Below, piece by piece: positions 13,102 through 47,300 of a DNA stretch of 64,000 nucleotides. A program made the translations under genes and the position numbers. Under the pieces are notes generated by a model. That model was given only the letters and a program-made list of their open reading frames with translations. It was not told the DNA's origin and made no database searches. Where the stretch lies: positions 124,001-188,000 of the forward strand of contig CANXME010002120.1 of assembly GCA_948144175.1 (NCBI GenBank), read 5' to 3'. This stretch comes from Closterium sp. NIES-65. Its lineage: Eukaryota; Streptophyta; Zygnematophyceae; Desmidiales; Closteriaceae. Positions within the stretch are counted from its first letter, which is position 1; the number at the start of each line of letters is the position of its first letter.

Positions 13102-13138
13102 TACCCGTGAGAGAGAGAGAGAGAGAGAGATAACACCC

Positions 13139-13183
<45 letters not shown>

Positions 13184-17771: not shown

Positions 17772-20700
17772 ATGCAGCCCGTGCCAAGTCCCTTCGTAGC
17801 TGCAGTTCTTCCTAGAAGAGCCGCTGAAGTTACCTCAAACCCGGCTGTGGGTACCTTTGGCTCTCCGGAAGCCGTCGCGATGCACAGCAATGGGCGAGCC
17901 CAAGACGAGCCCGAGGACGACGTGTTTGCTGAAGGTACGTCTCACTCCTCATAGCCATTCGTATGAACAACTGACCTGCGCACTGTCGGATCAGACGACT
18001 TAATCTACAAAATGTACTTATTGCTATTTCTGTTTGTTTTATAACCCTTTGCCACAGGCTCGAGATTCGTGTCGCTGAACAATGTGTCGATCACGGGTGG
18101 TACTAAGCGCAAGACACGTGCGAGGAAACCTAAAGAAGTGCGGAAGGGGAAGCGTTCTACTTTCGTCCGCACGGGCAAGAAAGGCTGCGCTGATGCAGTT
18201 GGTGATGGCGGTTGTGGAGCAGACACATACACTCAAGGAAATGGTCAACATGCACATAACGCCTCCTTTCCAGCTGCAGCCGCCACTATCTCTCCCTCCT
18301 CCGCCTATGTCAATGCAGCGGCGGTGACTCATCAGCTCGCCGCCTCTCACTCAATCCCTGGCCTGCCCTCCGCCTCTGCCTCCCTTTCAGCTGCAGCCGC
18401 CACTATCACTCCCTCCTCCGCCTATGTCAACGCAGCGACGACTCATCAGCTCGCCGCCTCTCACACAATCCCTGGCCTGCCCTCCGCCTCTGCCTCGCCT
18501 TCAGCTGCAGCCGCCACTATCACTCCCTCCTCCGCCTATGTCAACGCAGCGGCGGCGACTCATTAGCTCGCCATCACTCAGTCAGTCCCTGGCCTGCCCT
18601 CCGCCTCTGCCTCCCTTTCAGCTGCAGCCGCCACTATCTCTCCCTCCTCTGCCTATGTCATTGCAGCGGCGACTCATCAGCTCGCCGCCTCTAACTCAAT
18701 CCCTCGCCTGACCTCCACCTCTGCCTCCCCTTCAGATGCAGCCGCCAGTATCACCCCCTCCTCCGCCTATGTCAATACAGCGGCGACTCATCAGCTCGCC
18801 GCCTCTCACTCAATCCCTGGCCTGCCCTCCGCCTCTGCCTCCCTTTCAGCTGCAGCCGCCACTATCTCTCCCTCCTCCGCCTATGTCATCGTGGCGACTC
18901 ATCAGCTCGCCGCCTCTCACACAATCCCTGGCCTGCCCACCGCCTCTGCCTCCCCTTCAGCTGCAAGCGCCACTAACTCTCCCTCCTCCGCCTATGTCAA
19001 CGCAGCGGCGGCGACTCATCAGCTTGCTACCCGGATCTCTCCCTCCGCTGCCTATGTGCATGTCTCGGTTCCTGGCCAGTCCAGGCCCGCCGTTGCACCT
19101 GGATCGACCTCCCTGCCACCTGCTCCCAGTGCACTCTCACCCTCGCCCTCCTATATCAATCCTGGGTTGCACCCAACCAACTCAGGTCAGCCTGGCTCCG
19201 GCCTCATCCCACCAGCCTCTGCACCCCCTGCTGCCGCAGTGGCGCCCCCTACTACACAATTGCAGCCGTCTGGACTCCCATGGGCACTCCGTGTGCGCAA
19301 ATAGAAGTCCGCTCTCCCAGACCCTGGACCATCACATGTGGAGGCCGGGTCGGATGAAGACTCCGACGATGATGACTCCTTGGAGAATCATTATGAGCAT
19401 GATGGTGAACAGCGGCCTGCTGCAACCAGGGTTTCGCGAGCCGCTTTTGAGGCCGCGCAAGCGCAAATCCGACAACAGGCGCGACGCATAGCTGAGTTGG
19501 AGAATCAGCAACCTCAGCAAAAAGGCCCTCATGCTGGCAGTCACGCCATGGTTTAGCGCCAGGCCAATATGCCCAGCCCTTCCCAAAAGTTGCCGGTTGC
19601 ACCCCAGCTTGCTCCTTCAACCACTCGACCTTGCACCCAGCCGAATGCAACACCGACCCTGATTTTCTCACCGGTGGTGTGGCCACGAACGCAGGCCGCT
19701 TTTAGCCGTGCTGTGGCAAAGGCCCACATCAGACGACAGGCCATCGACTGCTCTGCAATGTCGCTACGGCAACACGGGTGGTACAATAACGTCATCACGG
19801 CGTTAGATGCTTTCTCGGATGTGAACGGGGACCTTAAGGTGAACAGCAACCCTTCGATTCAACCTTCGCCGTGCTTACAAATGACATCTGCATTGGGTGC
19901 CTACATCCCCCACCCCGCAAACTCCTCATGCCACAAACATTAACGCCCTCCCTTCCCTCCCCTGTTCTCTCTCCCACTCTGCCTTGTTGTGCACAATTTT
20001 TGTAGCTCTCCTGCAGGAACACGTGGATGAGGCTCTTGATATCATGTTTTTTGACACCCCAGTCACTGATTTCACGATGTGGCCTAGTACCAAAAGCCTA
20101 GAGGCGGCCCTGCGCAAGGCCCTAGGCCTCAATGAGCCGGAGGAGCATTTTATCGTGCGTATTGTTCTGAAAGCTGACAAGTACAGGAACGGCTACATTC
20201 GTGATATGATTCAAGCGTATTGCAACGACGCATTGACGGATGGGCGCAATTGGGTGTACAGCGACTTCGACTTGTACGTGCGACGGCCAAGGCTCGGTCG
20301 GAAGAAAGTAGGCACCCTCACGACAGTGCTGTTCCTGGACCAGTACGCTGAAAGTGAGTATGCTTTAACACTCCTATCACACCCCCGCCCCTACCCCACC
20401 CCCGTTCCTCCCTCTCCTTCCAAATGAGAATGAAACCTTTTCAACCCTTCCACACTATATTCTAGACAATGTGTTGTTGTAGTGTTTGGTTGAGGGCTTT
20501 CCTTCTTTCATTCAGTGTTGCACCAACATCACCCTCCTTCTTCCCCCATCCCTACACGTCTTCTTCTTCCCCCCACCTCCTCCCCGTCCACCTTTCTCCT
20601 GTGTTCCGTCTTTCCTGCTAGTACCCTCCCTGACATCGCTTCCCCACAGCAGCAATCACTGTCTGTATGATCCCAGCCCAGCAGTCCCCAGTGTACCCTC

Positions 20701-23700
20701 TTTCCCTCCCTGTTTTCCCCTCCCCACCCCAGCAGCAAGCAAGGCCAGCCAAGGCAGAGCCCAACAGTCCCCAGTGTACCCTCTTTCCCTCCCTGTTTTC
20801 CCCTCCCCACCCCAGCAGCAAGCAAGGCCAGCCAAGGCAGAGCCCAACAGTCCCCAGTGTACCCTCTTTCCCTCCCTGTTTTCCCCTCCCCACCCCAGCA
20901 GCAAGCAAGGCCAGCCAAGGCAGAGCCCAACAGTCCCCAGTGTACCTTCTTTCCCTCCCTGTTTTCCCCTCCCCACCCCAGCAGCAAGCAAGGCCAGCCA
21001 AGGCAGAGCCCAACAGTCCCCAGTGTACCCTCTTTCCCTCCCTGTTTTCCCCTCCCCACCCCAGCAGCAAGCAAGGCCAGCCAAGGCAGAACCCAACAGT
21101 CCCCAGTGTACCCTCTTTCCCTCCCTGTTTTCCCCTCCCCACCCCAGCAGGAAGCAAGGCCAGCCAAGGCAGAGCCCAACAGTCCCCAGTGTACCCTCTT
21201 TCCCTCCCTGTTATCCCCTCCCCACCCCAGCAGCACGCAAGGCCAGCCAAGGCAGAGCCCAACAGTCCCCAGTGTACCCTCTTTCCCTCCCTGTTTTCTC
21301 CTCCCCACCCCAGCAGCAAGTAAGGCCAGCCAAGGCAGAGCCCAACAGTCCCCAGTGTACCCTCTTTCCCTCCCTGTTTTCCCCTCCACACCCCAGCAGG
21401 AAGCAAGGCCAGCCAAGGCAGAGCCCAACAGTCCCCAGTGTACCCTCTTTCCCTCCCTGTTTTCCCCTCCCCACCCCAGCAGCAAGTAAGGCCAGCCAAG
21501 GCAGAGCCCAACAGTCCCCAGTGTACCCTCTTTCCCTCCCTGTTTTCCCCTCCACACCCCAGCAGCAAGCAAGGCCAGCCAAGGCAGAGCCCAACAGTCC
21601 CCAGTGTACCCTCTTTCCCTCCCTGTTTTCCCCTCCCCACCCCAGCAGCAAGCAAGGCCAGCCAAGGCAGAGCCCAACAGTCCCCAGTGTACCCTCTTTC
21701 CCTCCCTGTTTTCCCCTCCCCACCCCAGCAGCAAGCAAGGCCAGCCAAGGCAGAACCCAACAGTCCCCAGTGTACCCTCTCTCCCTCCCTGTTTTCTCCT
21801 CCCCACCCCAGCAGCAAGCAAGGCCAGCCAAGGCAGAGCCCAACAGTCCCCAGTGTACCCTCTTTCCCTCCCTGTTTTCCCCTCCCCACCCCAGCAGCAA
21901 GCAAGGCCAGCCAAGGCAGAGCCCAACAGTCCCCAGTGTACCCTCTTTCCCTCCCTGTTATCCCCTCCCCACCCCAGCAGCAAGCAAAGCCAGCCAAGGC
22001 AGAGCCCAACAGTCCCCAGTGTACCCTCTTTCCCTCCCTGTTTTCCCCTCCCCACCCCAGCGGCAAGCAAGGCCAGCCAAGGCAGAGCCCAACAGTCCCC
22101 AGTGTACCCTCTTTCCCTCCCTGTTTTCCCCTCCCCACCCCAGCAGCAAGCAAGGCCAGCCAAGGCAGAGCCCAACAGTCCCCAGTGTACCCTCTTTCCC
22201 TCCCTGTTTTCCCCTCCCCACCCCAGCAGCAAGCAAGGCCAGCCAAGGCAGAGCCCAACAGTCCCCAGTGTACCCTCTTTCCCTCCCTGTTTTCCCCTCC
22301 CCACCCCAGCAGCAAGCAAGGCCAGCCAAGGCAGAGCCCAACAGTCCCCAGTGTACCTTCTTTCCCTCCCTGTTTTCCCCTCCCCACCCCAGCAGCAAGC
22401 AAGGCCAGCCAAGGCAGAGCCCAACAGTCCCCAGTGTACCCTCTTTCCCTCCCTGTTTTCCCCTCCCCACCCCAGCAGCAAGCAAGGCCAGCCAAGGCAG
22501 AACCCAACAGTCCCCAGTGTACCCTCTTTCCCTCCCTGTTTTCCCCTCCCCACCCCAGCAGGAAGCAAGGCCAGCCAAGGCAGAGCCCAACAGTCCCCAG
22601 TGTACCCTCTTTCCCTCCCTGTTATCCCCTCCCCACCCCAGCAGCACGCAAGGCCAGCCAAGGCAGAGCCCAACAGTCCCCAGTGTACCCTCTTTCCCTC
22701 CCTGTTTTCTCCTCCCCACCCCAGCAGCAAGTAAGGCCAGCCAAGGCAGAGCCCAACAGTCCCCAGTGTACCCTCTTTCCCTCCCTGTTTTCCCCTCCAC
22801 ACCCCAGCAGGAAGCAAGGCCAGCCAAGGCAGAGCCCAACAGTCCCCAGTGTACCCTCTTTCCCTCCCTGTTTTCCCCTCCCCACCCCAGCAGCAAGTAA
22901 GGCCAGCCAAGGCAGAGCCCAACAGTCCCCAGTGTACCCTCTTTCCCTCCCTGTTTTCCCCTCCACACCCCAGCAGCAAGCAAGGCCAGCCAAGGCAGAG
23001 CCCAACAGTCCCCAGTGTACCCTCTTTCCCTCCCTGTTTTCCCCTCCCCACCCCAGCAGCAAGCAAGGCCAGCCAAGGCAGAGCCCAACAGTCCCCAGTG
23101 TACCCTCTTTCCCTCCCTGTTTTCCCCTCCCCACCCCAGCAGCAAGCAAGGCCAGCCAAGGCAGAGCCCAACAGTCCCCAGTGTACCCTCTTTCCCTCCC
23201 TGTTATCCCCTCCCCACCCCAGCAGCAAGCAAAGCCAGCCAAGGCAGAGCCCAACAGTCCCCAGTGTACCCTCTTTCCCTCCCTGTTTTCCCCTCCCCAC
23301 CCCAGCGGCAAGCAAGGCCAGCCAAGGCAGAGCCCAACAGTCCCCAGTGTACCCTCTTTCCCTCCCTGTTTTCCCCTCCCCACCCCAGCAGCAAGCAAGG
23401 CCAGCCAAGGCAGAGCCCAACAGTCCCCAGTGTACCCTCTTTCCCTCCCTGTTTTCCCCTCCCCACCCCAGCAGCAAGCAAGGCCAGCCAAGGCAGAGCC
23501 CAACAGTCCCCAGTGTACCCTCTTTCCCTCCCTCTTTTCCCCTCCCCACCCCAGCAGCAAGCAAGGCCAGCCAAGGCAGAGTCCAGCAGTCCCCAGTGTA
23601 CCCTCTTTCCCTCCCTGTTTTCCCCTCCCCACCCCAGCAGCAAGCAAGGCCAGCCAAGGCAGAGCCCAACAGTCCCCAGTGTACCCTCTTTCCCTCCCTG

Positions 23701-26700
23701 TTTTCCCCTCCCCACCCCAGCAGCAAGCAAGGCCAGCCAAGGCAGAGCCCAACAGTCCCCAGTGTACCCTCTTTCCCTCCCTGTTCTCCCCTCCCCACCC
23801 CAGCAGCAAGCAAGGCCAGCCAAGGCAGAGCCCAACAGTCCCGAGTGTACCCTCTTTCCCTCCCTGTTTTCCCCTCCCCACCCCAGCAGCAAGCAAGGCC
23901 AACCAAGGCAGAGCCCAACAGTCCCCAGTGTACCCTCTTTCCCTCCCTGTTTTCCCCTCCCCACCCCAGCAGCAAGCAAGGCCAGCCAAGGCAGAGCCCA
24001 ACAGTCCCCAGTGTACCATCTTTCCCTCCCTGTTTTCCCCTCCCCACCCCAGCAGCAAGCAAGGCCAGCCAAGGCAGAGCCCAACAGTCCCCAGTGTACC
24101 CTCTTTCCTTCCCTGTTTTCCCCTCCCCACCCCAGCAGCAAGCAAGGCCAGCCAATGTCAACAGGAATGGAGTGTTGGCCCCGCCCTCGCTTGGGCAACG
24201 CCGACGACTTGGTCGGATGTACGGGAGTAGCAGCCGACCGTTCACAGTGGGATAGCTGCTCGATAGGTTACGTCGAGCTGCAGCGGACCACTGTGGTGTT
24301 GCTGTCGACCAAGGAGCCCGACAGCTGCAACTGACTGGTTTGTGCGACGGGTGGGCCGTCCGGGAGGTCAATGAAGCAGTCTGTCGACCTACAGCTCAAC
24401 GAGGAGGTCTATGGAGCATCCCGTTGAACTGCAACTCGACCGGGAGGACTGGGGAGCATCTCGTCGACCTACAGTTCGACCGGGAGGTCGACAAAGCAGT
24501 TCTGGTCGACGCAAGGGGTCCGTCGACCAGGGGGAAGCTCAACGGGAGTTGTGGTCGACCAGGAGGGACCCAGTGGTCGACCGGAGGGACTTGGGGGTCG
24601 ACCAGAGGGACCCAGTGGTCGACCGGAGGCACCTGGGGGTCGACCAGAGCACCAGGGGTCGACCCGGTCGACCGGGTAACCTGCTCGACGAGTTCTGCGA
24701 GGGCTCGCGAACGTCGTCAAGATCGCGATGGCGCAGGCGACTTTGGATTGGTATCCCAAAGTCAATGTGGCTCGTCAGGCGCAGACAACAGCCGACGGAT
24801 GCCCAACGAGGCAAGTCGGGCCAATCGTCTGCGCACACCTGCGAGCGCGCGCACTGCTGTGTTCTACGGGGCACGCCGTCGACCTGCTTTGTTGGCAGGT
24901 CGCCCTTCTGCAGTGCTGGCGCGGCTCCTCTATGCAATGCTGGCAGGCGATCGACCGAGCTGCGCTGGCGGTCGACCAGGCTAGCTGTAGGGTTGCTAGG
25001 TGCCTGATGTAGTCTTTGTTGTGATTGCTTCTTGTATTATTCTGGATTCTTAACTTTGCTAGTGGAAACTCTTGCCAATTTCTCTCGTGAATGTGCAAGC
25101 ACTAAGGAACCAAGCAAAGCTACGATCACCTTTAGTAGTTCGTGCCAACCATGTAGTCCAGCTCACAACCGTTGTAGAGTGTATCTGCGCATGGTGCGGT
25201 GAGTGTCGATCAAACACGCGACCTTCAGATAGGAGCCGACTTCTGCACCTACTAAGTCGTTCGTAGGCCGGCAGCAGCGATAGTCGCCATGGTCGACCCC
25301 GTGGTTGATGCGGGTCTAACGGACACCTTGGAGGCACGCTTGGCTAACGCGAGGAGACGCCATGCGGATGGCGAGTACGGGACGATCCCCTTGGTGATCG
25401 CCGAGTTGGGCATCCGGTCGCAGTGGGCGACGGAACACCCTTCCCGTCCTACTTCTCCTCGACCGGTGCGCAACAAAGGTGGTGTCGACGACGAGGTCGA
25501 CGGTGGTGCACGAGTCAGCGGCAGCGAAGGCACGAGGCAGAGAGGAGTGATCAATGTCGACGGTAGTGTCGACGGAATCCAGGCGCGAGTGCAGCGGTTG
25601 ACGGCGGCTGCAGGCAGCTCGCACGCCGACGTCGATGTTCGACGTCGCTCTCCTCTACGAAGTGGTGGCGGGCTCTCGGCGACGACACATGTGACGGCCA
25701 GCGGGATTGCAACGGCGTATGGCTACTTCAAGTTTTCGCCGGATCGAATCACCGTCGCTCCGCTGCAAGGTCGACGGGACCTCATCACCTGGAGGGAGTC
25801 GATCAAACCTCAGCTGGAGGTTGCCGGGCTGAAGGGCTTTGCCGACAGCACCGTGCCAATTCCGCCCGAGGAGGATGTCGGGCAGCGCGAGGAGTTTCGT
25901 TCTGCTCACCTGCTCACCTTCATGGTCATCTCGAGGTGCTGCTTGCCGGTGGTGCAGCTGGCGCTCAGGAGCTGTCGAGAGCGTCTGGATGCTGGTCACC
26001 AGGCATGGCGCTTCATCATATCGACGTACCAGGTTAGGGACGACCTGTACATCGGACAGCTAGAGGAGAAGATGACTCACATTCGGATGGGCGAGCAAGA
26101 GTCAGCGACGGATTACTGCAATTGTGCTCGACGGATCCTGGCCGAGATGCGAATGGCGGGCGCCGAATACTCGACGGCGTCCTACATCACCCACATCGTC
26201 AAGGGCTTGCCACACAGCTACAATCTCATGAAGAGAATGATGATGGTGCCCGGCACGCGTGAGTCCCTTGACGAGGACTCCATCACCAGCTACATTCTTG
26301 AGGATGAGGCGATGCAGGAGGCAGAGCAGCCCACGGAGTTCCTTCCGCAGGCGAGTTACGCTGCACCGACGAAGCCGAATTATCAGCAGGAGCAGCACGA
26401 AAAGCCAGGCGGAGGTGGTAGCGGAGGTGGGCGGTCGACGAAGGACGTCAACGAGAAGAGGTCGACGCGGGACAAGGGTCGACGAGGTGGTGGTCGACGG
26501 CGGGAGTGCTGGATCTGCGGCGACCCTGACCATCTCTCCTTTGAGTGCTCCAACTGCGATGACCGTGACAAGGACGACAACAAGGCAGGCCGCGGACGAT
26601 CGGCCAGTCGTCGCCCCCGTCGAGTAGAGAAGCCGCGCAAGGAGAAGCAAGCGTCGAAGAAGACGTCGTCGACGAAAGACGTCGACAGCTCCAGCGGCAA

Positions 26701-29700
26701 GAGCCAAGGCGACGGGGAGGCGTCGTGCTCGATGGTCGGCGTAGTGGAGCCGACGGTCTCGCTGGCGCCGGAGGCTGGCGAGGACTTCCAGGCAGTGGCG
26801 GCAGCCATGCAGGCCAAGCCGATGGCGGTGCTACTCGACAGCGGGTGCTCCCACCACCTGATGGGGACGAAGTCGGTCTTCGTCGACATGGGGCCGAGCG
26901 ACGGGGTGAAGCACGTGCGTGGGTTCAACGGGGCATTGCAGCCTGTCAAGGGTCGCGGAACCGTCGCTATGCAAGGGGAGGCCGGGAAGTGGGTCCTCAT
27001 CCCCGACGTACTTTACGTTCCGTGCGTACAGGCAAACGTGTTGTCTGCTGGCCAGCTGAAGGAGAGCAGAGTGCTGCTGCAGGGCGATGGCGATGAGATG
27101 CTGCTCATCTCTGCGACTGGGGAGGTGCTCGGTCGAGCTCGCTACACCAGACGGATACTCTGCACTGACCTTCGCCCCTGCTCGACGCAGTTGCCGTCGA
27201 CCGAGGTGGTGGCTCTACGGACGATCATCTCCGCGACGAAGACGACCCCCGACAGGATGCATGCACGGCTCGCACACGTCAGCCTCGACACGATCAAGAG
27301 CTCGGCGAAGCATGATGTTGCTACTGGGCTCGACATCACGTTGTTTACCGGAGCAGACCCGCTGTGTGTCCCGTGCATCGGAGAAAAACTGGCACGCCAC
27401 ACCTTCCCCACCAAGGGCTCGGATGCAGCGGAGGCGCTGACTGTCGTGCACATTGACTTGTGCGGGCCGTTTCCGGTGGCTGCCAAGGATGGCAGCTTGT
27501 ACTTCCTACTGCTGAAGGATCACCATACTCGATTCGTGTGGGCAATGCCGGTTGCTAAGAAGAGCGATGTGCTGCGCGAGTTCGAGAAGTGACTGGTGCT
27601 TGTGGAACGACAAACAAAGAAGTCGGTTCTGTCGCTTCGCTCCTATCAAGGGGGGGAATTCCTCGGGAAGGCGTTCACCGATTTCGTCGACGGGAAGGGC
27701 ATCGTCCACGACCTGACGTGCCCCTACACTCCGCAGCAGAATGGCATGGCTGAGCGGGAGATGCGCATGGTCGTCGAGTCCGTGCGGACGATGCTACTGC
27801 ACATGGGCGTGCAGCATCACTGGTGGCACCTTGCTCTATGATAAGCGGTCTGGGTGCGCAACTGCTTTGAGCGGTCGACGACGCCGCCGGGAACGACTCC
27901 GTACCAGCTGCTGACCGGGCAGAGGCCCAACCTTACGCTAGCACGGGTGTGGGGTTGCATGGTGCAGTTCATGGTTCCCGAGCAGCAACGAGGCGGGAAG
28001 CTGGCGCCGAAGGCTCGTTGGGGGCTTCACCTGGGTGTGTCGCCGAAGAGCAAGGGCTGGGAGGTGCTCGACCTGACCGACAACAAAGTGGTCACGTCGG
28101 TCGAGGTGATCTTCTACGAGACGCTGTCACTGGAGGTGTGGAAGGCGAAGTATGGGCCGGCGTTGGAGCGGACGCAGGCGCACCCGCCGACGGACACCTC
28201 GACGGCGACGGTTCCCTTGCTCGCCGAAGTCGACGAGCTTGCTGATGAAGATGTTGTGGAGGTTCTTCCACCTCCCCCTGTTCTTGCTCCTCCCTCTCTC
28301 GTCGCCGATCTGCCTGCGCCGACACATGTGTCGGCCACCAACGATGAGGGGAGACTGGAGGCGTCGCCTGTGGCGCCGGCTAGTGGCATCGCCGGCGGAC
28401 GACAAGGCGCCAAGCTTGTCGACTACGATGGGAAGCCGTCGATGACAGGGGAGCACCTGACAGGGGAGCCGATCAAACAGGAGGCATCGGCAGGGGTACA
28501 CTCGACAGGGGAGCGGCAGACGGAGCGGTCAACAGGAGAGTTGTCAAAGGCAGCAGCAGAGGAACAGCCGGTCGAAGGGTCGAAGCAGCTGGTCAACGAC
28601 GTTCTTGTTGATAAGAAAGGGGAGCTGTCGGCGGGTGAGTCCACCGACAATGATGTAATGGAAGTGCCGATCACGAAGCCCGAGCTACGACGTACATGTC
28701 GAGCTTGACGGCCGCCGGAGCGGTTGTGCTTACATGCCTGCCTACCGCCTGCTGCCTTCACCACGGTGTACAACGAGGTCGACGACGACCTGCTGTACGA
28801 CGATGCCGAGGAGGATGAAGACCTGCTGGAGCTCGACGCGGAACATGCATGCCGACCTGGAACACCGCTGGGACATTGCCACGATGACGGTGAAGGAGGC
28901 GCTGTCGAGCTGGAAGGGCAAGGCGGTGAAGGCCGCCATGGAAGAAGAAATCCGTAGCCTCATCACTATGGGGACTTGGGAGCTGGTCGAACGCCCACGC
29001 GGGGTGAACATCATGAAGAACCGATGGGTGCTGACGACCAAGTACCGCATCGACGACACCGTCGAGCGCGAGAAGGCGAGGCTAGTCGTGAAGGGCTTCA
29101 CACAGGTGTACGGCGCTGACTGCGACAAGACGTCCTCCTCGGTGAGCAGCTACGTCACGCTGAGGATCTTCCTCAGCATAGTCGCCGTCCTCGATCTCAA
29201 CCTAATGCAGCTCGACATGAAGAATGCTTTCATGCAGAGCAAGCTTGACAGGGTGCTCTACATGTACCAGCCGGGCTATTTCAACGACGGGACCGGCCGG
29301 GTTTGTAAGCTGCTGAAGAGCCTCTACGGGCTGAAGCATTCGCCGCTACTGTAGTACAAGGCTCTCGGCAATGTGCTGCTGGGCGCTGGCTGGAAGAAGA
29401 GCCAGGTCGACGAGGCACTCTACTTCAAGGTCGGAGACGACGGAGTGACGTGCTGGGTGCTGGTCTACGTTGACGACCTGCTTGCCGCTAGCAGAAGCAC
29501 TGCGATGCTGAAGGAGCTGAAAGAGCTGCTGGAGGCCGCCTTCGAGCTACGTGAGATCTCACCAGTGGTGAAGTACCTTGGGCTGGAGATCGTGCGCGAC
29601 TGGCCGGCCAGGAAGCTGTGGCTGCACCAGCAGGGCTACGCCGACAAGCTGCGCAGGCGCTTCGTCGACCAGGAGCAGGGCGGTCGAGTCCCGAAGACGC

Positions 29701-35100: not shown

Positions 35101-35199
35101 TATCTCAGCAGACTTGGCCATCTGCCGTATAGGCAACGAACTAACTACTCGCCATGGGTCAGTAGCGGTTTCGTGTGGAACCTTGTTGCGTTTCTATGC

Positions 35200-36300
35200 G
35201 GGATGTTAGACCAACTGTTGAGAATCACAGGTGTGTCTCCAGACTCTCCCTTCGCAACGCTCCAATACTCCCGTGCCCCTTCACTCCAAACACGACGCGA
35301 TCGTCGCAATCCTCCCTTCCCGAGGCTCATTCCTTGCGCGCCGCGTTCTTTTCCTCTCGTGCGTTCCTCCCTTACCCGCCACGTCGCATTCAGTGTCCTA
35401 TCTGCTTCTGGTGCGCGCTGCCGTCTCTTCTTTCTAGACGATTCATCCCGTGGCGGACTCGTCCTATTCACCCTCCCGTGTGCGCTTTGTCCCGCCCACC
35501 CCGTCCTTTTCTCCCATGCCTGCCGCTTTGCATTCTTTCTCCCGTCCGCTTCTCCCGTGATCGTTGTCGTCCCTCCCTCTGTTCCATTCTTCGTGTGCCC
35601 CATTCCCCCTACCGTCCATTCCTCCCGTTCGCTTTTCGTCGATTCACTGCCATCTGTTTCCCCCATATCCGCGGATTTCGCATTGTCCCTCCCGGGCTTC
35701 GTGATTGGCGCGCCTCGCCCCATTTAGCTCCCTACTCTATTGCGCGCCTGGTTCCGTTCCCTATCTCGGCCAATCCTTATTTTCGCGCCTCGTTCGTTCC
35801 CTATCTCGTTCGTTCCTCCTTTGCGCGCCTTGTTCGTTCCCTCGTATTCCCTATCACGGACGGTGTCATTTGTCCTGGTCGTCCCATTCTGCCTATTGTC
35901 TCTTCCACGCATCCGTGCCTCGTGCATTCCGTGATCTCGTCCATTGCTTGCATCCGCGCCTCGCTCGTCTCCCCCTCTCGTCCGTTCCTTGTTCGCGCCT
36001 CGTTCCCATTCCAGCTCTCGTCCGATACTCCATACCGCGCCTCGTTCTTTGCTCTCACTAGTCAGATCCTCCCTTCCGCAAGCGTACACTCTCCTTCTCT
36101 GCGCCTCTCCTCCATTGAGCGTACCCTCTCATGCCCCGCTGCTCCTCTCTTCCATTGTGTGTGCACTCTCTTTCCCCTCCGCGCCGTTCGCATTTTGTCC
36201 CCATCATCTCCTCCTGTGCGTATACTATCACATACACCGCTGCTCCTCTCCTCCCTTGCGCCTTCTCTCTCCCTACCACCCGCCCCTCCTTTTCCGTGAG
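35200..36300 (+). repeat. Degenerate pyrimidine-rich region
   Basis: Plus strand rich in C and T with recurring words (CGTTCCCT, GCGCCTCGTTC, TCCCGTGCG). It looks like a decayed minisatellite leading into the clear 40-bp array. The long Ser/Pro/Arg ORFs are composition artefacts. Confidence 0.6.
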
Positions 36301-37190
36301 CCCTCCCTCTCATTCCCCTCTCATTCTCTCATTCCATGCGCCATCCCTCTCATTCCCCTCTCATTCCCCTCTCAAAATCTCATTCTGTGCGCCTTCAATC
36401 TCATTCCCCTCTCATTCTATCATTCCGTGCGCCTTCACTCTCATTCCCCTCTCATTCTCTCATTCTGTGCGCCTTCACTCTCGTTCCCCTCTCATTCTCT
36501 CATTCCGTGCGCCTTCACTCTCATTCCCCTCTCATTCTCTCATTCCGTGCGCCTTCACTCTCATTCCCCTCTCATTCTCTCATTCCGTGCGCCTTCACTC
36601 TCATTCTCTCATTCCGTGCGCCATCCCTCTCATTCCCCTCTCATTCTCTCATTCCGTGCGTCATCCCTCTCATTCCCCTCTCATTCTCTCATTCTGTGCG
36701 CCTTCACTCTCCTTCCCCTCTCATTCTCTATTAGGATGTGCCTTCCCTCTCATTCCCCTCTCACTCTCTCATTCCGTGCGCCTTCACTCTCATTCCCCTC
36801 TCATTCTCTCATTCCGTGCACCTTCACTCTCCTTCCCCTCTCATTCTCTCTTAGGGTGTGCCTTCCCTCTTGTTCCCCTCTCACTCTATCATTCCGTGCG
36901 CCTTCACTCTCATTCCCCTCTCATTCTCTCATTCTGTGCGCCTTCACTCTCATTCCCCTCTCATTCTCTCATTCTGTGCGCCTTCACTCTCATTCCCCTC
37001 TCACTCTCTCATTCCGTGCGCCTTCACTCTCATTCCCCTCTCATTCTCTCATTCCGTGCACCTTCACTCTCCTTCCCCTCTCATTCTTTCTTAGGGTGTG
37101 CTTTCCCTCTCATTCCCCTCTCACTCTCTCATTCCGTGCGCCTTCACTCTCCTTCCCCTCCCATTCTCTCATTCCTTGCGCCTTCATTCA
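36300..37190 (+). repeat. 40-bp minisatellite, about 22 units
   Basis: The unit is built from CATTCCCCTCTCATTCTCTC and ATTCCGTGCGCCTTCACTCT. Variants carry TTAGGGTGTG or CTGTGCG. Plus strand strongly pyrimidine-biased. Confidence 0.93.
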
Positions 37191-37739
37191 CATTCCCCTC
37201 TACTCCTCTTCTCACGTGCGCGTTCTCTCGTCCCCCTCTGGTTCACTCCTCACGTGCGCGATCTCTCTCGTAACCCTCTATTCTGCTCTCATTCCTTGCT
37301 CTCACTTGTCCCACCCTCCATTCCGCGCCTCGCCCCCATTCCTCGTGACATGTCCTGAGTTTCCTCTCATGCGAGTTTGCCCCATTCCCCTCTGCTCCGC
37401 TCCTCCCGTGCGCATGCTCTCTCTTTCCCCTCTGCGCCTATCCGCCCATGCGCAATTTGTCTTTTTCCCCTCTGCCCCCCTCCCCCCTTTGCGCCTTCTC
37501 GCTCGCTCCCCTATGAATCTCTTCTCCAGTGCGCCCTCTCTCTCTTCCCTCTGTTTCTCTTCTAGTGTGCACTCTTTCTCTTGTTCCTGTTTGTTTCTCT
37601 TATCATGTGCGCCTACATACGCATCCCCACCTGTTAATCTTCTCTAGTTCTCCGTCTCCATCACTCCTCTCTGTTTCTCTCCTCCAGTGCACCTTCTCTC
37701 TCCCGTACGCTCGTCCTCGCTATGCTCCGTTGCATCCTA

Positions 37740-38180
37740 CCCCTTTCATCCTATGCTTGTATTCTCTAGTTCCCCGTTCATCTTGTGATTGTCTTCGCTG
37801 GTTTTCCCCTTCCCCATCATCTCATATGCTTGTCTTCTCAGGTTTCGGCCTTCCACTGGCCTCTTATGCTTGTATTCTCTGGTTTCCCTTTTCCCCTCCC
37901 CACCTATGCATGAATTCTCTGATTTCCCCTTTCCCCTCCCCTCATATGCATGTATTCTCTGGTTTCCCCTTTCCCCTCCCCTCAAATGCATGTATTCTCT
38001 GGTTTCCCCCTTCCCCTCCCCTCATATGCATGTATTCTCTGGTTTCCCCCTGCCCCCGCCCTTCAAGTTGCTTGTCTTCTCTAATTTCCCCTTCCCCTGC
38101 CCTCCTAAGCTTGTCTTCTCTTGTTTCTCCCTTCTCGTGTCCTCGTAAGCCTTTCTTCCCTGGCCTCCCCCTTCCCCCGC
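37740..38180 (+). repeat. Second 40-bp minisatellite, about 10 degenerate units
   Basis: The unit is built from ATGCATGTATTCTCTGGTTT and CCCCTTTCCCCTCCCCTCAT. The middle units are exactly 40 bases apart (for example 37946 and 37986). It lies directly upstream of the transposase. Confidence 0.88.
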
Positions 38181-38229
38181 CCTTCAAGTCTTGTCTTCTC
38201 CCGTCTCCCCCTTCTCCCCTACTCCCAAA

Positions 38230-41190
38230 ATTCTGGCAGATGTCATTTTTCTGCCCAAGATGTATGTTGTCTCTATGCATTCGACACTCGATCGGGTTTG
38301 GGACACCACATGCAGAGCAACTCCTGCCCTGCAAACCTCATTAGCAGTAGCGAGCAGCTGCAGGGCCCCAAACGTGCAAGGTCGAGCTTCATCCCTCCTA
38401 ACCCCATTCCGCGTGCAGTACTTAGGTTGGAGCCTATGCATGCAAATGTAGGAACGGGTGTTGCGGAAGATGTGTCTATTGATGTACCTCCTATTTCTCG
38501 TGCTGATCCAACAGACACTAGTGATACTTCCTCATCCTCTGATTCAGTAGATAGCGCGCTGCCCTTTGAACAAGAGGACGATGCGTCTAGTAACGCTGCT
38601 GTATCTGGTGCTGATGATGATGGTGGGGAGGGAGCTCAAGCAGGTGTTGCACTGGAGGAAGAGGAAGATGCCCCTCAGTTTAACCTCAAAGATGCTCTTG
38701 CGCACTAGATCCTCTCCAACCGACTCTCTATCAGTCAGATTAACGTTCTGTTGGAAATCCTGCGCAAGACCATTCTTGAAATACAAGATTGGAAGTCCTA
38801 CCGAGACGTGCAGGTGTACGCTGAGTCTAGGGCGACGGATGCCCACCGAGGTTGGCGACGAAAGACCATCCGGTCATGTAACAAGGCTTGGCTGGAGTAT
38901 TGGTATTGTGATCCGTTGATTGCTCTGCAGGACCTGTTGAAGAACCCCAAGCTGGCTGCCAAGATGGTGTTCCATGCAGATCCTCAATATGTGGGGAACG
39001 TGAGGGTGTACAGTACCCCCGAGACAGGCCTATGGTGGGAGAGGTTGCAAACTTTGGTGCGGGAGGAGGATCCGGATGGAGTTGTGGCTGCTTTGATCTT
39101 TGCGGGTGACGAGACGCATATGGATCATAGAGGGAAGGCGAAGGGTCATCCTGTGTATCTCACGTTGGGTAACATTGATAAGGACGACAGGTGGCAACCC
39201 TTTGGGCATGTGCTACTAGCACAGCTCCCTGAGTTTCTGCAGAGTACAACGTAGGGGACAAGATGCAAGTCCACAATTACATCATGCGAGAGATGCTGCA
39301 ATCTCTTAAGACGGCATCCTACACCGGCATAGCTATGAAGAATGCTGCAGGCGAGTCAATCAATGTGTGGCCCTATTTGTACGCTTATGTGTCGGACTAC
39401 CCAGAGTCGTGCAAGATCACGTGCACGAAATCCTTGGGTACTTCGTTTCCGTGTTCGATTTGCAAGGTGGACAAAAAGCACTTGGCAGTGCTGCAGGATC
39501 GTATCCAAGCTCGTACACCATTCGAGCAGGACACCATTGTGCGAGACATCTTAGAAGGCCGGCTCGCACTAGATGCGGAGGCAACCTTCTCCACCCACCC
39601 TGTGCAGGTATAGTATGTTGTGGGTACTGTTTTAGGGTCATTCTATGGGCTATACCATGTGCAGAACTAACTTCTAGGTGCTGGTTCTGGTTTTTGCAGA
39701 GTTTCCTAGGTGGCTGGAGGTGGGAGTCCGACACCATTCTCAACCCGTACCTTGCGGTGCTGCCCGATGTGATGCACCAAGCAGATTTGGGCCTTTTCGA
39801 GCACATTGTTGACTTAATTCGCGCGCATGTGCAGTTACTGGCAGATAGAAAGAAGCTGGACAGAATCCTTAGGTACTACAAGAGAAGTATTAGAGGGGGG
39901 GACATGCGTTTACCCGCGGGTCAGTACTTCGAAAAGGGGGCGAATTATCAAGCATACGAACACCAGTCGGTCATGCAGATTCTGCCTTTCATCGTGAAGG
40001 GTTTTATTACGCAGCCACAGATGGACGCACTCGTCTCATACATCGAGTGGTACCTCGAGTGCGCGCGGGCATCGGAACACACCGACACCTCCCTCCTTGA
40101 GTTCAAGACAAAGGCACACCGGTGAGTAGTATAGTTCACAGTGTGTTGCGTTCATTCTCCGACTGCTTGCTAAATATTGATCGACATGTTTTGGCCTATA
40201 CGCAGGATGTTACACAACCTCAAGACTGCATTCCCGCACACGTCGGATTGGAACTTCATTAAGATGCACCTCATCAGTCACTACATAGACTCCATTCGTG
40301 GGTCGGGCTTGCCCGAGCATTGTTCTGCACAACTATACGAGCATCTGCACATAGAGTACATAAAAAACCCTTACCATGCATCAAATAAACGGTCTGTCAA
40401 TAGCCAAATCGTCGGCAGCGAAGAGGCACGGCTTCGTCTTTAGTATATCGCGCCACAATTCATGGCGAAGAAGAAGTATGACACCGCCATGGTGAAGGTA
40501 AGAACTAGACTTATGTGTATGGTTCTCGATTATTTCCATCGAACATGGAATACACGTAACGAGATGATGGTGGTGTTCCATGCCTGTAGGCCCAACGGAC
40601 AGGCGAGCGGGTTCTATCGAAGAGGAGTTGGGCATTGCACGTGCCAGAAACACGTGTTGGAGCCCCATACCCTCAGGTACCGGATGCGAAGCGTGATGGC
40701 CCGTTGCGGGCCATCATCGGCGAGGAGTTGAAACACTTGCATGCGGCATTGGATAGGGCACCTGGCTATGACGGCAATGGGCAAGCTATCAAGGAAGTAC
40801 ATGTATGTACGACGTCCATTCCTGCCCCGTCGTAGCTTTTGTAATCGTACCCAAACAATCTGACTCTTCTGGTTGACGGTGCCTTTGCAGGTCCACTGGG
40901 AACTCGCCATGCCAGCTGCGGTTGATGCGCAGTATAGTCGCCTGCCGCACCGCATCCACGCCCTGCCCATGCACCACGGTCGTCAATGGTTTTCTGATGT
41001 GGCAGTCAAAGGTGAGGGCTCAGACGGGGACGAGGAGTGGTTTGCGAAAACCCTTCTGTTGTTTCATGCCAAGGTTGCGGGCACGGTTAAAAACTATGCA
41101 TTCGTCAAGTACTACAGGGAACACGCCAGCATTGATGCAGCCACCAAGTGCAAGGTTTTGCACTGGGAGGGAGTTAATCAGAGGTACTGA
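38230..41190 (+). pseudogene. Plavaka-type (CMC superfamily) transposase, decayed, with introns
   Basis: Matches the Plavaka transposase family seen mainly in fungi. Signs in order: an N-terminal zinc finger (CPRC, then FDTRSGLGHHMQSNSC in another frame); an acidic stretch; the core GDETHMDHRGKAKGHPVYLT followed by LGNIDKDDR; DYPESCKI and FPCSICK; NPYLAVLPDVMHQADLGLFE; and KMHLISHYIDSIRGSG with HIEYIKNPYHASNKR. Introns with clean joins: 39608-39699 and 40122-40205; probable ones after 40497 and before 40891. Damage: a frame change in the finger, TAG at 38706 and 40441, and a frame change near 39245. Ends at TGA 41188. Terminal repeats were not found. This enzyme class cuts and pastes its own DNA. 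Confidence 0.72.
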
Positions 41191-42200
41191 GTAATTAGTA
41201 TTGATAGCATCAAGCGCGCGGTATAGTTAGTGCGACCGGACAAAGACGCTGAAAAGTGGTTCGTTAATAGGTTTGCATGGTGAAAACTTCATACTGGGTA
41301 GTATATTTAAGTGGCCTGGCAGGCAAACAAAGCCATCTAGGTTGCCTTAGCCTTTTAAGAGTCAAATACTTCAATCTGTAATTTATATTACGTTCCCAAT
41401 TCGTTTGCAGTCAGTACCAGACAGCATACTTTGTCCCGCTTCCTCATTATTAAGTCACCATCGATGCAATGAAAGCTGCCACACGCGACAACGTCAGACA
41501 AGGATAACTGCCTCGCGTTGCACACTGTGGGGTGCACCTGAATGTGGATGGCGGTGTCGCATTAGTTGGTCGAAATCTTCCCGTTGCTAACACAGATGGT
41601 GGCAGCTTCCGATTGGTTCATTCTGCGGCAATAACAGTCGTGTTGGCAGCACGATAGTCGAATTTGAGACACATTCAAGCATTTTCTCCAGCTACGTGCC
41701 ACACTGCGCGCCGCACATGCGTGACATCAGCTCCGTTGGAGTCGAGGTCTGCGCGGTGGCGACGTTTGTCTCACCTGCACCTTTCGAAGTGGTGCTTGTA
41801 CGAGATGGAAAATTTTAGTTGTAAACTAACCGCTTGACCGCGACCGTGGTTGTTCCATTTGCTTTCGAGTAAATATCAAACAAGTTCGTGTTTGACGTGC
41901 AGCTGTGACTTCAACACTCTTTTTCGTTCACGCCGTGCTAGATCACTACATTTTGAAATATCATAGTTTCATAGCATAGTTTATGGGTGTGTTTTTTAGT
42001 TTAGGCACCTTAATTCACATATATGCATGTTACCTTACTTCCTCGTTTGCCGAATCAAAGTTCACAGTAACATTTCCCGGGAAAAGGCATGGGAAATAAT
42101 GGACATATGGGGTTGAGAAGTCGCAAACATTCACTGTGTCGCTAAAAATGTCATATAATAAGCCGTGCAAAAAAAAAGCTCTTGGCTGGTTGCGTCGTGG
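41191..42200. other. Spacer between transposase and gene 2
   Basis: No gene recognised. The sequence becomes AT-richer towards 42000. Confidence 0.4.
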
Positions 42201-42385
42201 CATTTTCCCCATTTGGTATGTTTAACTGGTCGTCAACCATCACTATCCTCAAACCTATGGCTCAGAACGGGGGACAGTTAGTGCAGGCAGGCACCGGGAA
42301 AAGAGTTTTGCCAGATCCAGCGAGGGTCACCTTGCCCCACCCTCATTCTGCTCTCAATCTGCTCAATGCCTCTGCAGTGTCATAG

Positions 42386-44977
42386 CTGGGAGATGACGTT
42401 CTTACAGAAGAGATTAAGAGGCGGCAGTTAGCTAAAGAGGCTGCCTTCAAAATAGCTGCAGTCAATACTCTCCACGGCGCTCCCACGGTTGGTAAGACGG
42501 CAGCTGCAGGCCGTCGGGGCGGGTCTAAGAGGAAACGTGCTGCCGCCGGCTCTGGTGGACGTGGTCGATCCTCTGGTGCGAATGGCAACATTCGTGCAGG
42601 CTCGCCATCCGCTGACAACCCTACCGCCGGCACTTCGTCAGAAGCAGAAGGCGCGAACCCTGCACCGGTGGCAGAAGCAATGGACACCACGCAAAACGGC
42701 GCACCAACCACAGGCGGCATAGTCTGCGGTATCGCGTCATGCGCAGATACTGGAGCTCTCCCTGCACCCCTCGTGCCTGCCGCCGGAGCCCCGGGTCTGA
42801 TGATGGCAGAAGTGATTGAGGCCGCAGCGGAGGGCGGCGTGGATTCTTTCATCGCATACGGCATCGAAGCTGGTAGCGACGACGAAGACGGGAACGACGA
42901 CGATGCAGATGATGCGGACGGCGTCCAAGCGGGAAACGCCGATGAGTTGCGCGCAGCGGAGGTTCGCGCTGCGGAAGTGTGCGCAGCGGAGGTTCGGGCG
43001 GCGGAGGTTTGGGCGGCAGAGCTTCGGGCGACGGAGCTTCGGGCGGCGGAGATTCGAGCGGCGGAGATTCGAGCTACGGAGGTTTGCGCGGTGGAGGACC
43101 GCGCTGCGGCGGTTCGCGCGGCAGATGTGCGCTCTGCGGAGGCTCGCCAGACGGAGCTGGCGCCGCACACCTCGCAGCCTAATAACCCGGCAGTACCCGC
43201 TAGGCGTGAACGGTCGCAAGGTAAGCAAACGCAACACGCTCATAGCTACGGTGCCAGTTCTTGAATTGTTGCTCAACTCCATCCTACGTTTCCTCCCCCC
43301 GGCCCCCCACTCGCCCCCTCCGCTAGCCAATGTGTTATGCATTTTATTTCTATGAGCTGAGCTCTGTTGTTCATTACGTTGGCTGGATGACTGTCTAATT
43401 GTTCTTTCCACTTGCTTGTTGTCTGCCTTTCTCGATACGTGTTATTCTCGGGGCTTGTCCCGTAGTTGCTGGTGCGCACCATTTCAGGGAAGCACGACAG
43501 CTGGAGGCGATATTGCGTGACCTGCAGAACACGGTCTCCACTCTGAACGCGCAGCTGCAGGAGGCAAGGGCCAGTATCAAGGCGGTGGAGGCTGAACGCG
43601 ATAGTCTGAAAACGCAGTTGGAGTCGATGCAGCGACAGCTTTCAGCAGAAGTCGCTGGAACGAGCTCGGACGTGGGCGCCCTTCGGGACCCTTCTGGCCC
43701 CCTGGTCCGAATGGAGAACGTCCGTAAGGACGTTGCGGGCAGCCCGACCATTCCGTCATCAGTCAGCAGCGACGATGCATTCGATGTAAGTTAGTTAACC
43801 GAGGTGCCATTCTGCTAGTATGTACTTTCGGATGTGCTGTCCTTTTATGTCTTGCAAGTTCTATCTTTAAACCCGCCCCCAACCCTTCCTCTCGCTACCG
43901 CTCTCGGCCCGTCCACCACTTCCTTCTGTCCGTCTTTTGTGAGTCCCGTCCACAAACTTGTGTGTAGCATGTCCGGTGCCTGAAATTTAACCCCCTCATC
44001 ACCCTTGTGCGTCCTTGTGTTGATTGTCAGGAAATGGTGGGTAAAACCTTCGCCTGGCTCATCACCCTTGCCCCTGCAGAAGAGATGGAGTTCTATCCTC
44101 TGTGGGAAGAATTCCAGCCGCATTTGGTGCGCAAGTACATAGCTGAGGGGACCACGCAAGATGAATACTACCTCTTCATGGGCGGGAACAGCAAGCGCAT
44201 TGATCGGGCGCTGAAGGTGATTAGCTGCAAACGCGCGAACATGAACAAGCCGATCAAGCTCTGGGCGTGGGGTGCTGGTGGCGTCATTGACCAGGATAAG
44301 TGGTTCCTTTTGAAGGTTGGTGGCATCACTCCATCAAAGTCACGCAACGAAAAGGAGTGGGTGGAGCAGTTCAAACACCGTGAGTGTGCTTGTCTTTTCT
44401 CACATCCGCACCATGCTGGAATGTTCTTGCGCACAGATCTGATTGCCATTGTTTTTATCTCCGCAGCAAAGTATGGCTACGACTGGCATTGCTCTGCTCA
44501 GAGCGGCCCTTTCGCGAATGCAGCCTTTGAGCTGGCAGTCAAAAAGGCATTTGTCAGTGCCCGGTGCAACATGTTTGCAGTGAAGATTCCAGCGGTCGGC
44601 TATCTGTGCAACGTGGTAAGATGTCACTTGTGTTATTTGATCCTGTTTGTTTCCCCCTGCATATTGTTCTTAACTTAAGCGCCTTTCATTGGTGGCAGGT
44701 TGAATGGCCATTGGAGAACCACAAGGGCAAGAAGGGCCATGCATCTCTGGACAACAATGAGACCAACAACCGCAACAACGTCCATGCCAAGACGAGGGTG
44801 GTTGCTGCCTGGCTGAAGGAAACCCTTGAAAGGGAGCCTGCTACGTTCAAGATCGATGAGCCCATGGGGTTTGAGATGGGCATTGGGAAAGTTAGGATTT
44901 TGATAGAGGGATATGAGCTGTTTTTCTTCCCCTCAGGGGTCGTTCCAACCCCCTGGCCTCCTATTAACAACCTGTGA
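42386..44977 (+). CDS. Gene 2: multi-exon gene of unknown function, paralogue of gene 1
   Basis: Predicted exons: about 42386-43220, 43466-43785, 44031-44379, 44467-44615, 44699-44977 (TGA). Donors are GTAAGC, GTAAGT, GTGAGT and GTAAGA and all joins keep frame. Parts: basic GGSKRKR; Ala/Gly-rich text; acidic GSDDEDGNDDDADDADG; a five-residue tandem repeat; a strong coiled coil of about 60 residues (LEAILRDLQNTVSTLNAQLQ); then a C-terminal region of about 270 residues (WHCSAQSGPFANAAFE, KIPAVGYLCNVVEWPL, NRNNVHAKTRVVAAWL). The start is unresolved: the same frame is open from about 42180 but has TAG at 42383. That TAG could be the end of an intron starting GTATGT near 42216. I do not recognise the family; a nuclear coiled-coil protein is an inference. 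Confidence 0.6.
42945..43161 (+). repeat. 15-bp coding minisatellite in gene 2
   Basis: About 14 units of the GCGGAGGTTCGGGCG type. In the gene 2 frame they give a five-residue repeat (RAAEV, CAAEV, WAAEL, RAAEI). Confidence 0.9.
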
Positions 44978-47300
44978 ATACTTTCTAAATGTAGTAGGTT
45001 TTTTCTATTTAATGATTTTATGATGTAGAGTATTATGTAATCACTAATTCTGCAGAATTATATCATCCTTTTTATAGCATAGTCAATGCAGTTTTATATC
45101 AATGAAGCAATAACGTTAAAAATATTGAGATCTGTTGCATACAATCACGTCACTTTATTTTCCACACCTGTGACTATATTGAGTTGTTAATTTCCAGGAA
45201 TACAACAAACTCCTCGATAACGAGCTGAAATATTTAGTTTAGCTGGTTACAATTGAAAATTAATTGCTCAGGTAACCATATCGTAAACGCCAGCACATCT
45301 TCCCAATTGTTCGTCGCAACGGTGTGTACCACCAGTTCCTGCCCTAAACCGATGTTGTTCCTACAGTCCACGTGGCCAATCGAAGCTCACACCTCGAGCT
45401 GATTTCGACCGCAACCTGCAGAATCCGTTCGTTGTTGCTGCGTCAACCACCACACAACCGAACTTACCTTCAGACCGAAAAGTGGTTGTCAACCAGCGTT
45501 GACAGCACCACCTGTTTTGGGCAGATGAATGCCTCATTAACTAGGCAAGCAAAACACGACAGTCAACTCCCACGCTCCTTCACCTCCTCGACTGTTTACT
45601 GCCCCAAACTAGGCGGACATTTTTCTGATGTCTTTTGTCCCCGCTGTAAGCACGTTGAGGCAGAACGGTGGCCCTTGTGGGCTCGGCGGCGCAGAGCGAG
45701 CAGTAGGTGCAGCAGCGAGTGGAGGAGTGGAGGCGACGGCAGGAGAAGGAACGGGGAAAAACATGATCAGAACGCAAGAGAATGTGGGAGGACGGAGCTC
45801 CGAGAGTAACGTCTCGAAGGGCAGACAAAAAGGGAAGGGACCTCAGGGCTGAAGCAACACCTGTTTGGTGAAAGCCTGTGCGATAGTAAGTCGACCGCTA
45901 GAACCGTAACCGCCCTGTTATCGTGATGCTCTCACCTATTTTCCGCCCCTTGTCTCTTCTCCCTTCAGCTCGCTCTCTCTCAACACTCTCTCGCCCTTCA
46001 CCTTGCACTTTTGTCCAACATTCACCTCCTCGCTTCCTCCGGAATATTGAGCATGTGCCCCCCTGCCCTGCAATGCGTTTCCCGCCTCCCCGCTCCCATG
46101 CCCAGGCTTAAAGGGTAACAGCCCGAGCCTTGAACCACTGGGCATCCACGCGCTGAGCCTTGAAGGGGTATAGCCCTTGGTTCAAGTCTGCAGATGCGTC
46201 GACCGTCCATGTGTGACATCTGATCTGCCGTAAGTCCCTTGGCGGTCGGCCGGGATTGCAGCAATTCAGCGGTGAGAAGCAACAAGGGGGCCTCATTTCT
46301 ATCGCAGACATTCCATCCTGTGCACTCAATGTGTGACGTGACGGCCTTCCTTCTTTTCTCCCCTACGGCTGCCATTCTCTGCCTTTATTATGCAACTGCT
46401 GCTTCCACTGTTCTCCACCCACTTGCTCCGGCTCCTATTCCCTCCCCCCCTCCTCTATTCCTCTTGCTGCTCACTGTTCTCCACTTTCCCTTACTCCCAC
46501 CGCGTTCTCCCATGCTGCAACCGCACACCTTCCATTGGTGCTATGCGTGAATGTGCATAGTGTGCGTGCCGCATATGTGGTGTGTCCATGGTGTGAGCAT
46601 GGTATGCATGATGGCGTGTGTGGTGCTTACATGGTGTGTGCATGACGTTTGTGGCACATACACCAGTGCACGGTAATGGTTGACTGGGATCGGAGGTACC
46701 TTCCTTTCATCCACACTCCACACTCCCCTTTCCGTCCTCTTTCCCTCGCCCTACCCTTCCCCTTTCCTCCCATACCATCCCCTTTCTCTCCTCTTCACCT
46801 CTCATTTCCCTAACCTTTCCCTCACCTTACCCTACCCTTTCCCTCCCCCTTTTCTCCCCTTTCCTACACCTTTCCCTCCCGTTCTCCCCCCTTCCCCTCC
46901 TCTTGCCTTCCTCCTTCCCTCCCAAGCCAGACGTGGCGGGAGTGTGGCAGAGCTGCGGAGCACAACCCCCATGTAGGAAAGCTCACTCCTGATTCATCTC
47001 CACAGGTTGCGACAGCTCTCCCTCTTTCTTCCCCTCCCCTTCCCCTCCTCCTCCATGCAACAGACCAGCCGTTGTGTTGGGAGTGGCGGTGCTGCTGAGC
47101 TGATCGGCACGCCCCTCATGGGGACATCATCCACACATCGGGGGACAAACTCCTTGGTCGGAATCAGCTCCAACGTGCTGGACCAGTCCAGATCGCGAGC
47201 CACTCACTCACTGCCTCTTGAAGACATGCCCCTCTGCCTCACCAGGGACAAACTCCTTGGAATCAGCTTCAGCCTGTCGAAGATCGAGAGCTAGTGCCCT
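44978..47300. other. Low-complexity spacer
   Basis: AT-rich to about 45250. Later there is a GT-rich stretch (46550-46680, TGTGGTGTG and ATGGTGTG words) and a C/T-rich stretch (46690-46925). No gene I can support. Confidence 0.4.

Follow-up and report, generated by a model that had tools for sequence, protein, structure and literature searches.

A gene family paired with Plavaka transposases in Closterium sp. NIES-65 and its possible role as a TnpA-like partner

We analyzed a 64,000-nucleotide window of the Closterium sp. NIES-65 genome (C1822:124001-188000; contig CANXME010002120.1, here C1822), which holds two multi-exon genes, termed gene 1 and gene 2, whose models were predicted from sequence alone. 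We found that both are very probably genes of Plavaka elements. The reading towards which we lean is that each is a second gene, other than the transposase, of a different Plavaka-type DNA transposon and that their products would work as TnpA-like partners of the transposases. Pairing with the transposases group by group and the location of the gene inside the element argue that the partner is a working part of the element.

The pairing was assessed across the 874-Mb assembly of 2400 contigs. After matches within 6 kb had been merged, three groups of Plavaka transposases comprised 63 (group A), 54 (group B) and 61 (group C) places, and a partner was sought within 35 kb of each place, a distance at which even spreading would give 0.3-0.5 per cell of the comparison. 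All pairing counts are lower bounds, made on the best-scoring candidates among the matches listed. Gene 2 was found at 45 of the 63 group-A places, which had gene 1 once and gene 3, a third family member described below, three times. Gene 1 accompanied 37 of the 54 group-B places, where gene 2 occurred at none and gene 3 at two, and gene 3 accompanied 37 of the 61 group-C places, with gene 2 at one and gene 1 at none. With respect to orientation, gene 1 and the group-B transposase were divergent in all 37 pairs, the transposase lying 7.6-26 kb upstream, and gene 3 lay downstream of the group-C transposase on the same strand in 37 of 37 pairs. Gene 2 was located downstream of the group-A transposase on the same strand in 38 pairs and was divergent from it in seven. 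All three partner clades were multicopy, with at least 170 exon matches genome-wide for gene 1 and at least 199 for gene 2 (E-values up to 1 in both cases).

Gene 2 is located in a complete Plavaka element, element A, which spans 33972-45630 (11,659 bp) between perfect 14-bp terminal inverted repeats. The left repeat (33972-33985, forward strand) reads CATCAGAAAAATGT and is preceded by TC at 33970-33971, and the right repeat (45617-45630, reverse strand) is followed by TC at 45631-45632; this 2-bp target site duplication, short and from a single copy, is weak taken alone. The right edge reads ACATTTTTCTGATG, the exact inverse of which was found at 33972, and it coincides with the homology breakpoint (45630-45634) of copies on C1989, C1337, C2377 and C1840. 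In the window and in these four compared copies, the right end lies approximately 650 bp past gene 2. The published termini of one Plavaka group, PlavakaB, are CATCA..TGATG with target duplications of 2-3 bp (PMC12730594); the termini and TC duplication of element A fit this description. The transposase domain was found on the forward strand at 38709-39613 in two frame pieces, 38709-39254 and 39233-39613, on which PF18759 gave E-values of 1.8e-19 and 2.9e-13, both over the curated cut-off. The coding region is inferred to run on to approximately 41190, and a CSIC motif (C-x2-C) is visible in the interrupted frame at 39233-39613. Gene 2 lies approximately 4.5 kb downstream of the transposase, between it and the right inverted repeat. 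Additionally, arrays of a 40-bp pyrimidine-rich repeat occupy 35740-38219, between the left end and the transposase, and are possible binding sites for the partner.

The first-pass annotation had placed genes 1 and 2 on both sides of a Plavaka transposase. The two genes do not flank a single element: only gene 2 lies in the window element at 33972-45630, and gene 1 lies in another, element B, that ends at 33035. The ends found at 33035 and 33972 rule out one element enclosing both genes. The part of element B inside the window spans 13017-33035, with an uncertain left limit, and its terminus on the gene 1 side (33022-33035, reverse strand) reads CATTTTTTCGGATG on the forward strand. The same sequence, a terminus similar to those of element A, ends five gene 1 copies with unrelated flanks (L024, L025, L026, L032 and L036). 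As an exact 14-mer it occurs 19 times in the genome, versus 0 for a backwards control, and 13 of the 19 occurrences are on the gene 1 side of gene 1 copies, nine of them within 1 kb and four approximately 10 kb away. Gene 1 copies examined outside four near-copies stop at 33035-33036, except for four that stop at 32996; the four near-copies themselves (on C1822, C2384, C784 and C1825) continue past 33035. The side-by-side position of genes 1 and 2 is a neighboring insertion, repeated only on C2384, C1825 and C784.

On the other side, alignment of the C32 and C1795 copies with the window begins at 13212 and 13398 (the limits of the compared sequence) at 95-97% identity, and the C1795 alignment extends at 85% to 13017, in a GA repeat. 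Upstream, both copies lead to a gene that resembles a transposase, is read from the opposite strand and holds a C2H2 finger scoring under the Pfam cut-off. A query from this element B transposase matched group-A Plavaka places at 35-45% identity, and the transposase is therefore regarded as a diverged Plavaka type; the Plavaka kinship of group B rests on this match. On the contig of the window, the query matched C1822:103104-103717 (minus strand), outside the window and approximately 40 kb from gene 1, which is the probable transposase of the gene 1 element.

Genes 1 and 2 share one layout, in which a basic tract, repeats, an acidic run and a coiled coil precede three C-terminal exons. The first-pass annotation had listed this layout, and we recovered it in the sequence, the helical appearance of the gene 1 stretch being judged by eye only. 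Compared as single sequences, the two genes gave a score of 51, against a shuffle mean of 32.1 (standard deviation 4.6; 0 of 500 shuffles reached 51), a likeness that is weak. Family profiles were built from exon pieces, with 10 and 14 rows left from 31 and 24 loci after gap and redundancy filtering. They aligned over 189 colinear columns with a probability of 95.4 and an E-value of 1.7e-8, and the core exon alone gave a probability of 96.4 and an E-value of 1.2e-9; the first and last exons taken alone were not significant in this comparison (E-values of 0.23 and 0.011). A ten-row alignment contained seven invariant columns, P97, R101, W119, H120, P127, F133 and N186 in the numbering of the gene 2 row. 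Judged from the family profiles and the conserved last intron, genes 1 and 2 are homologous and form one unrecognized family, as had been proposed.

Past the coiled coil, the intron phases are 0, 1 and 0 in both genes, and the earlier statement to this effect agrees with the exon lengths (337 + 200 nt in gene 1; 349 + 149 nt in gene 2). From WH to the last donor both genes count 44 codons, and Val-Glu opens the next exon. The 31 gene-1-type and 24 gene-2-type loci yielded 20 and 21 distinct cores for scoring, once two of each type without the motif and nine and one duplicates, respectively, had been excluded. A GT directly followed codon 44 in 19 of the 20 gene-1-type and 20 of the 21 gene-2-type cores. 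A loosely defined AG/GTNGAR acceptor, which encodes VE, was found within 400 nt in 20/20 and 17/21 cores, respectively, and bears out the proposed restart with VE. The count of 44 residues likewise stands for both genes and most cores, but the number is weakened by a second GT, which most gene-2-type cores carry one codon before or after codon 44, and by a one-residue indel that partly offsets the exact 44. On these alignments it is the homologous last intron, not the number 44, that is the solid part of the observation.

Gene 1 was modeled on the forward strand with a predicted first exon at 17772-17934 and a second exon at 18058-19838. The latter contains a basic tract TKRKTRARKPKEVRK (K/R at 9 of 15 positions), tandem repeats of 114-bp units (18261-19024), an acidic run EAGSDEDSDDDDSLE (D/E at 9 of 15) and the helical-looking stretch. 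The C-terminal exons lie at 20017-20353 (exon A, with a phase-1 donor), 31859-32058 (exon B, which holds the WH..PFA core) and 32144-32386 (exon C). The large intron between exons A and B contains an 83-bp minisatellite of 42 copies (20675-24155), which was found in sister copies too, and a Copia retrotransposon (approximately 24141-31620) sits within this array; parts of its terminal repeats are 90-95% alike, and it has an interrupted reading frame. A close gene 1 copy showed approximately 95% identity across the exon region, with the 83-bp intron array included in the shared part.

The 5' part of gene 2, also on the forward strand, spans 42257-43220 and contains a basic tract that includes GRRGGSKRKR, an acidic run SDDEDGNDDDADDAD (D/E at 10 of 15) and 15-bp repeats (42950-43147) encoding an A-E-V-R-A run, which matched the Decapeptide repeat model with an E-value of 2.4e-6 and 27.8 bits, under the 45-bit cut-off. 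The true start is uncertain because of an in-frame stop at 42383. The coiled-coil exon was placed at 43489-43786 with boundaries predicted by eye; the frame at 43399-43791 gave weak matches to 77 Pfam models, and many of the best 25 of these 77 were coiled-coil models. The C-terminal exons lie at 44031-44379 (exon A, present in 24 of the 24 gene-2-type loci given), 44467-44615 (exon B, with the WH..PFA core) and 44699-44977 (exon C, ending in TGA), and open frames for them were found in copies elsewhere in the genome.

Gene 3 was spotted by reading 20 kb around one group-C copy. Its layout resembles that of genes 1 and 2, with a basic tract, alanine-proline repeats and a WH..PFSS..F core WHLLNGHPFSSPAF; no strong acidic run was seen in the frames inspected. 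From this layout and the profile match given below, gene 3 likely shares descent with genes 1 and 2.

If the favored reading is correct, a partner protein would be needed beside the transposase and would act like TnpA of CACTA elements. The basic tract would target the partner to the nucleus and to DNA, dimerization would occur through the coiled coil, and the C-terminal domain, with its invariant W-H and conserved P-F, would bind the subterminal or tandem-repeat DNA of the element, or the transposase. The partner would thereby join the element ends, and it could possibly regulate or unsilence element promoters. Each group would have its own partner clade, as partner, transposase and sites would have to match. 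A basic tract, a coiled coil and a C-terminal domain that is conserved would suit a TnpA-like protein; that the partner binds DNA, dimerizes and is required is our inference.

CACTA transposases are related to those of Plavaka (PMC12730594). In Spm/En, TNPD is the transposase and TNPA binds the subterminal repeats, and both are required (PMC2613891); proteins of the TNPA type diverge rapidly from one species to the next (PMC8195511). The Closterium elements resemble the CACTA/EnSpm systems with TNPA and TNPD (Spm/En, Tam1 and Tgmt) in having a transposase of a related superfamily and a second, fast-diverging multi-exon gene, for which a dimerizing DNA-binding role is only expected. In contrast, the second gene here is a separate gene, divergent in group B, rather than a product of alternative splicing, and the partners are homologous across groups, whereas TNPA and Tam1 TNP1 are without mutual similarity (PMC2613891). 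Harbinger/Nuwa elements also combine a transposase with a separate partner, a Myb/SANT DNA-binding protein (PMC12730594), but their transposase belongs to another superfamily, and no Myb/SANT match was found here in Pfam scans. With Plavaka itself (CMCT clade, PF18759), element A shares the transposase domain over the cut-off, the CATCA..TGATG termini and the 2-bp duplication, and it differs in the second gene family with one clade per group. The portions consulted of the Plavaka account describe no such partner, only TET/JBP cargo (PMC12730594), and no conserved Plavaka partner was found in the literature on Plavaka, DUF6532 and CACTA partners that was covered in part, with few subscription papers included.

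Pfam scans of family members and pieces gave no match that reached a curated cut-off, and searches of Pfam, PHROGs and PDB sequences with the C-terminal regions returned nothing significant save one lead. The best PDB match, CmeR (E-value 0.012, profile 28-104), was taken as chance. The lead is a match of one member of the gene 1 clade (L071, contig C1896) to DUF6532 (PF20149), a mainly fungal domain, with an E-value of 9.6e-5 and 22.8 bits (cut-off 24) over positions 11-134 of the 194-position profile. This match was found in 1 of 10 members, and the other scans gave 0/2, 0/1, 0/10 and 0/4 family pieces, so that kinship with DUF6532 is treated as a lead only. A genome-wide search with DUF6532 returned no candidate, but its controls were silent as well, and the result is no proof of absence. 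In two Ganoderma species, DUF6532 is listed with Plavaka and KDZ among additional domains (PMC8955403). It is conceivable, though doubtful, that Plavaka elements generally have two genes and that the partner and the fungal orphan domain DUF6532 are members of one ancient family. In that case, the fungal DUF6532 copies would be transposon partners co-evolving with Plavaka transposases, and this co-evolution would predate the exchange or inheritance of Plavaka elements between green algae or plants and fungi.

Several observations weigh against a TnpA-like partner or soften the evidence for it. Transposase_24 (PF03004), which is used for plant TnpA, gave no match in the Pfam scans up to an E-value of 10, and a single-sequence fold model of the window protein encoded at 44031-44615 was uninformative, with a mean predicted local distance difference test (pLDDT) score of 34.6. 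The three transposase groups were sorted by search score, A and C being separated by PF18759 rank, and not by a tree, and the window Plavaka was put into group A by hand. Copies are not independent, as many are near-identical and some contigs are probably haplotypes, and the number of events is accordingly overstated; one gene 1 copy on C1795 was counted for two transposase places. Among the matches listed, 18 of the 63 group-A, 17 of the 54 group-B and 24 of the 61 group-C places had no partner within 35 kb. Decay, contig ends and the restriction to the matches listed may explain part of these places, which also fit a dispensable partner. The gene 3 profile matched the other two over 22 columns only (E-values of 1.2e-4 and 1.3e-3, against 0.45 and 0.27 for a reversed control). 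With regard to element B, the end on the transposase side was not found in the sequence examined, which leaves one end only, and the gene 1 copies on C1797 and C2122, which are possibly truncated or interrupted, align no further upstream than 18153 and 17678.

The partnerless places are also what an anti-silencing or regulatory protein, comparable in purpose to the TET/JBP enzymes on fungal transposons or to VANC and dispensable for the cutting reaction, would be expected to leave. VANC proteins of the plant VANDAL elements serve as the anti-silencing or regulatory comparison. Such a protein could use the large tandem arrays (the 83-bp repeat in 42 copies and the 40-bp units in 35740-38219) as binding sites, the acidic runs of genes 1 and 2 resemble activation regions, and in fungi some of the Plavaka families have TET/JBP (PMC12730594). 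Set against this, no chromatin-type domain was significant in the Pfam scans, where an EELM2 match had an E-value of 0.13, and the matching of clade to group is equally expected of a transpososome part; we consider a purely regulatory role rather unlikely.

It is improbable that transposase and partner form one transcription unit, with the partner as a splice form or C-terminal part comparable to tnpA/tnpD of Spm/En. In group C and in most group-A pairs, the partner does follow the transposase on its own strand, but the head-to-head arrangement of all 37 group-B pairs and the seven divergent group-A pairs mean that this arrangement cannot cover the whole family. The first-pass annotation had left open whether the genes were a host family or transposon cargo. 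Passive carriage of a host gene family, or a chance position of two unrelated multicopy genes beside transposons, would agree with the blank function of the family and with gene 1 and the window Plavaka being neighbors solely at this locus and its near-copies. We consider either very improbable, as the three groups show a diagonal of pairs against 0-3 off the diagonal, gene 2 lies inside exact element ends, gene 1 copies have a common end with unrelated flanks, and the three clades are all multicopy. A transposon gene is thus favored over a host gene, and "cargo" understates a near one-to-one pairing in three groups.

The copies in the window appear decayed and are probably inactive. The in-frame stops in the element genes, at 18564, 19302 and 19554 in gene 1, at 38706 and 40441 in the element A transposase frame and at 42383, close to the assumed start of gene 2, were TAG every time. 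A comparison among gene 1 copies, which covered 19302 and 19554, revealed that the former stop was missing from 11 of 12 other copies and the latter from all 12. Decay from C to T at CAG sites, as with cytosine methylation, could be behind some of the TAG stops. A reassigned genetic code at the gene 1 stops was rejected, as seven HSP70 frames covering profile positions 62-599 (one 64-599) were without an internal stop; in some other, partial HSP70 rows one or two stops occur, and all three stop codons are represented among them. The HSP70 frames are interrupted around profile position 62-71, the usual site of an intron in plant HSP70 genes, which makes a host of the green lineage likely.

Mobile DNA is dense across the window, with reverse-transcriptase frames, Plavaka and two Copia elements (approximately 24.1-31.6 kb, in the gene 1 intron, and approximately 57.8-60.5 kb). 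The reverse-transcriptase frames (1424-6205 and 9814-12843) lie between gene 1 and the supposed element B transposase, and each is followed by GA repeats (6298-6719 and 13017-13230, respectively), as though elements without long terminal repeats end in (GA)n here. An Rfam scan of the window at gathering thresholds gave no match. Four contigs, C1822, C2384, C1825 and C784, have the common arrangement of genes 1 and 2, and beyond the element B end the latter three keep 97.7-98.9% identity with the window (for C784, as far as 33349 only); from this identity, the four look like haplotypes or segmental copies. Left of the window on the same contig is a group-C Plavaka with a gene 3 partner (C1822:76610-77075 and 93395-93850, minus strand), and a further group-A pair was found at C1822:220412 and 233665.

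The partner reading offers a likely role for a gene family that is blank in sequence searches. The finding carries a warning for annotation, as partner genes with ordinary-looking introns would pass as host genes. If the DUF6532 lead is true, a domain of unknown function would gain a testable role. Three clades, each matched to its own group of transposases and found in two gene orders, provide a natural experiment on the specificity between transposase and helper. The results suggest that Plavaka, known mainly from fungi, may travel as transposase-plus-partner units.

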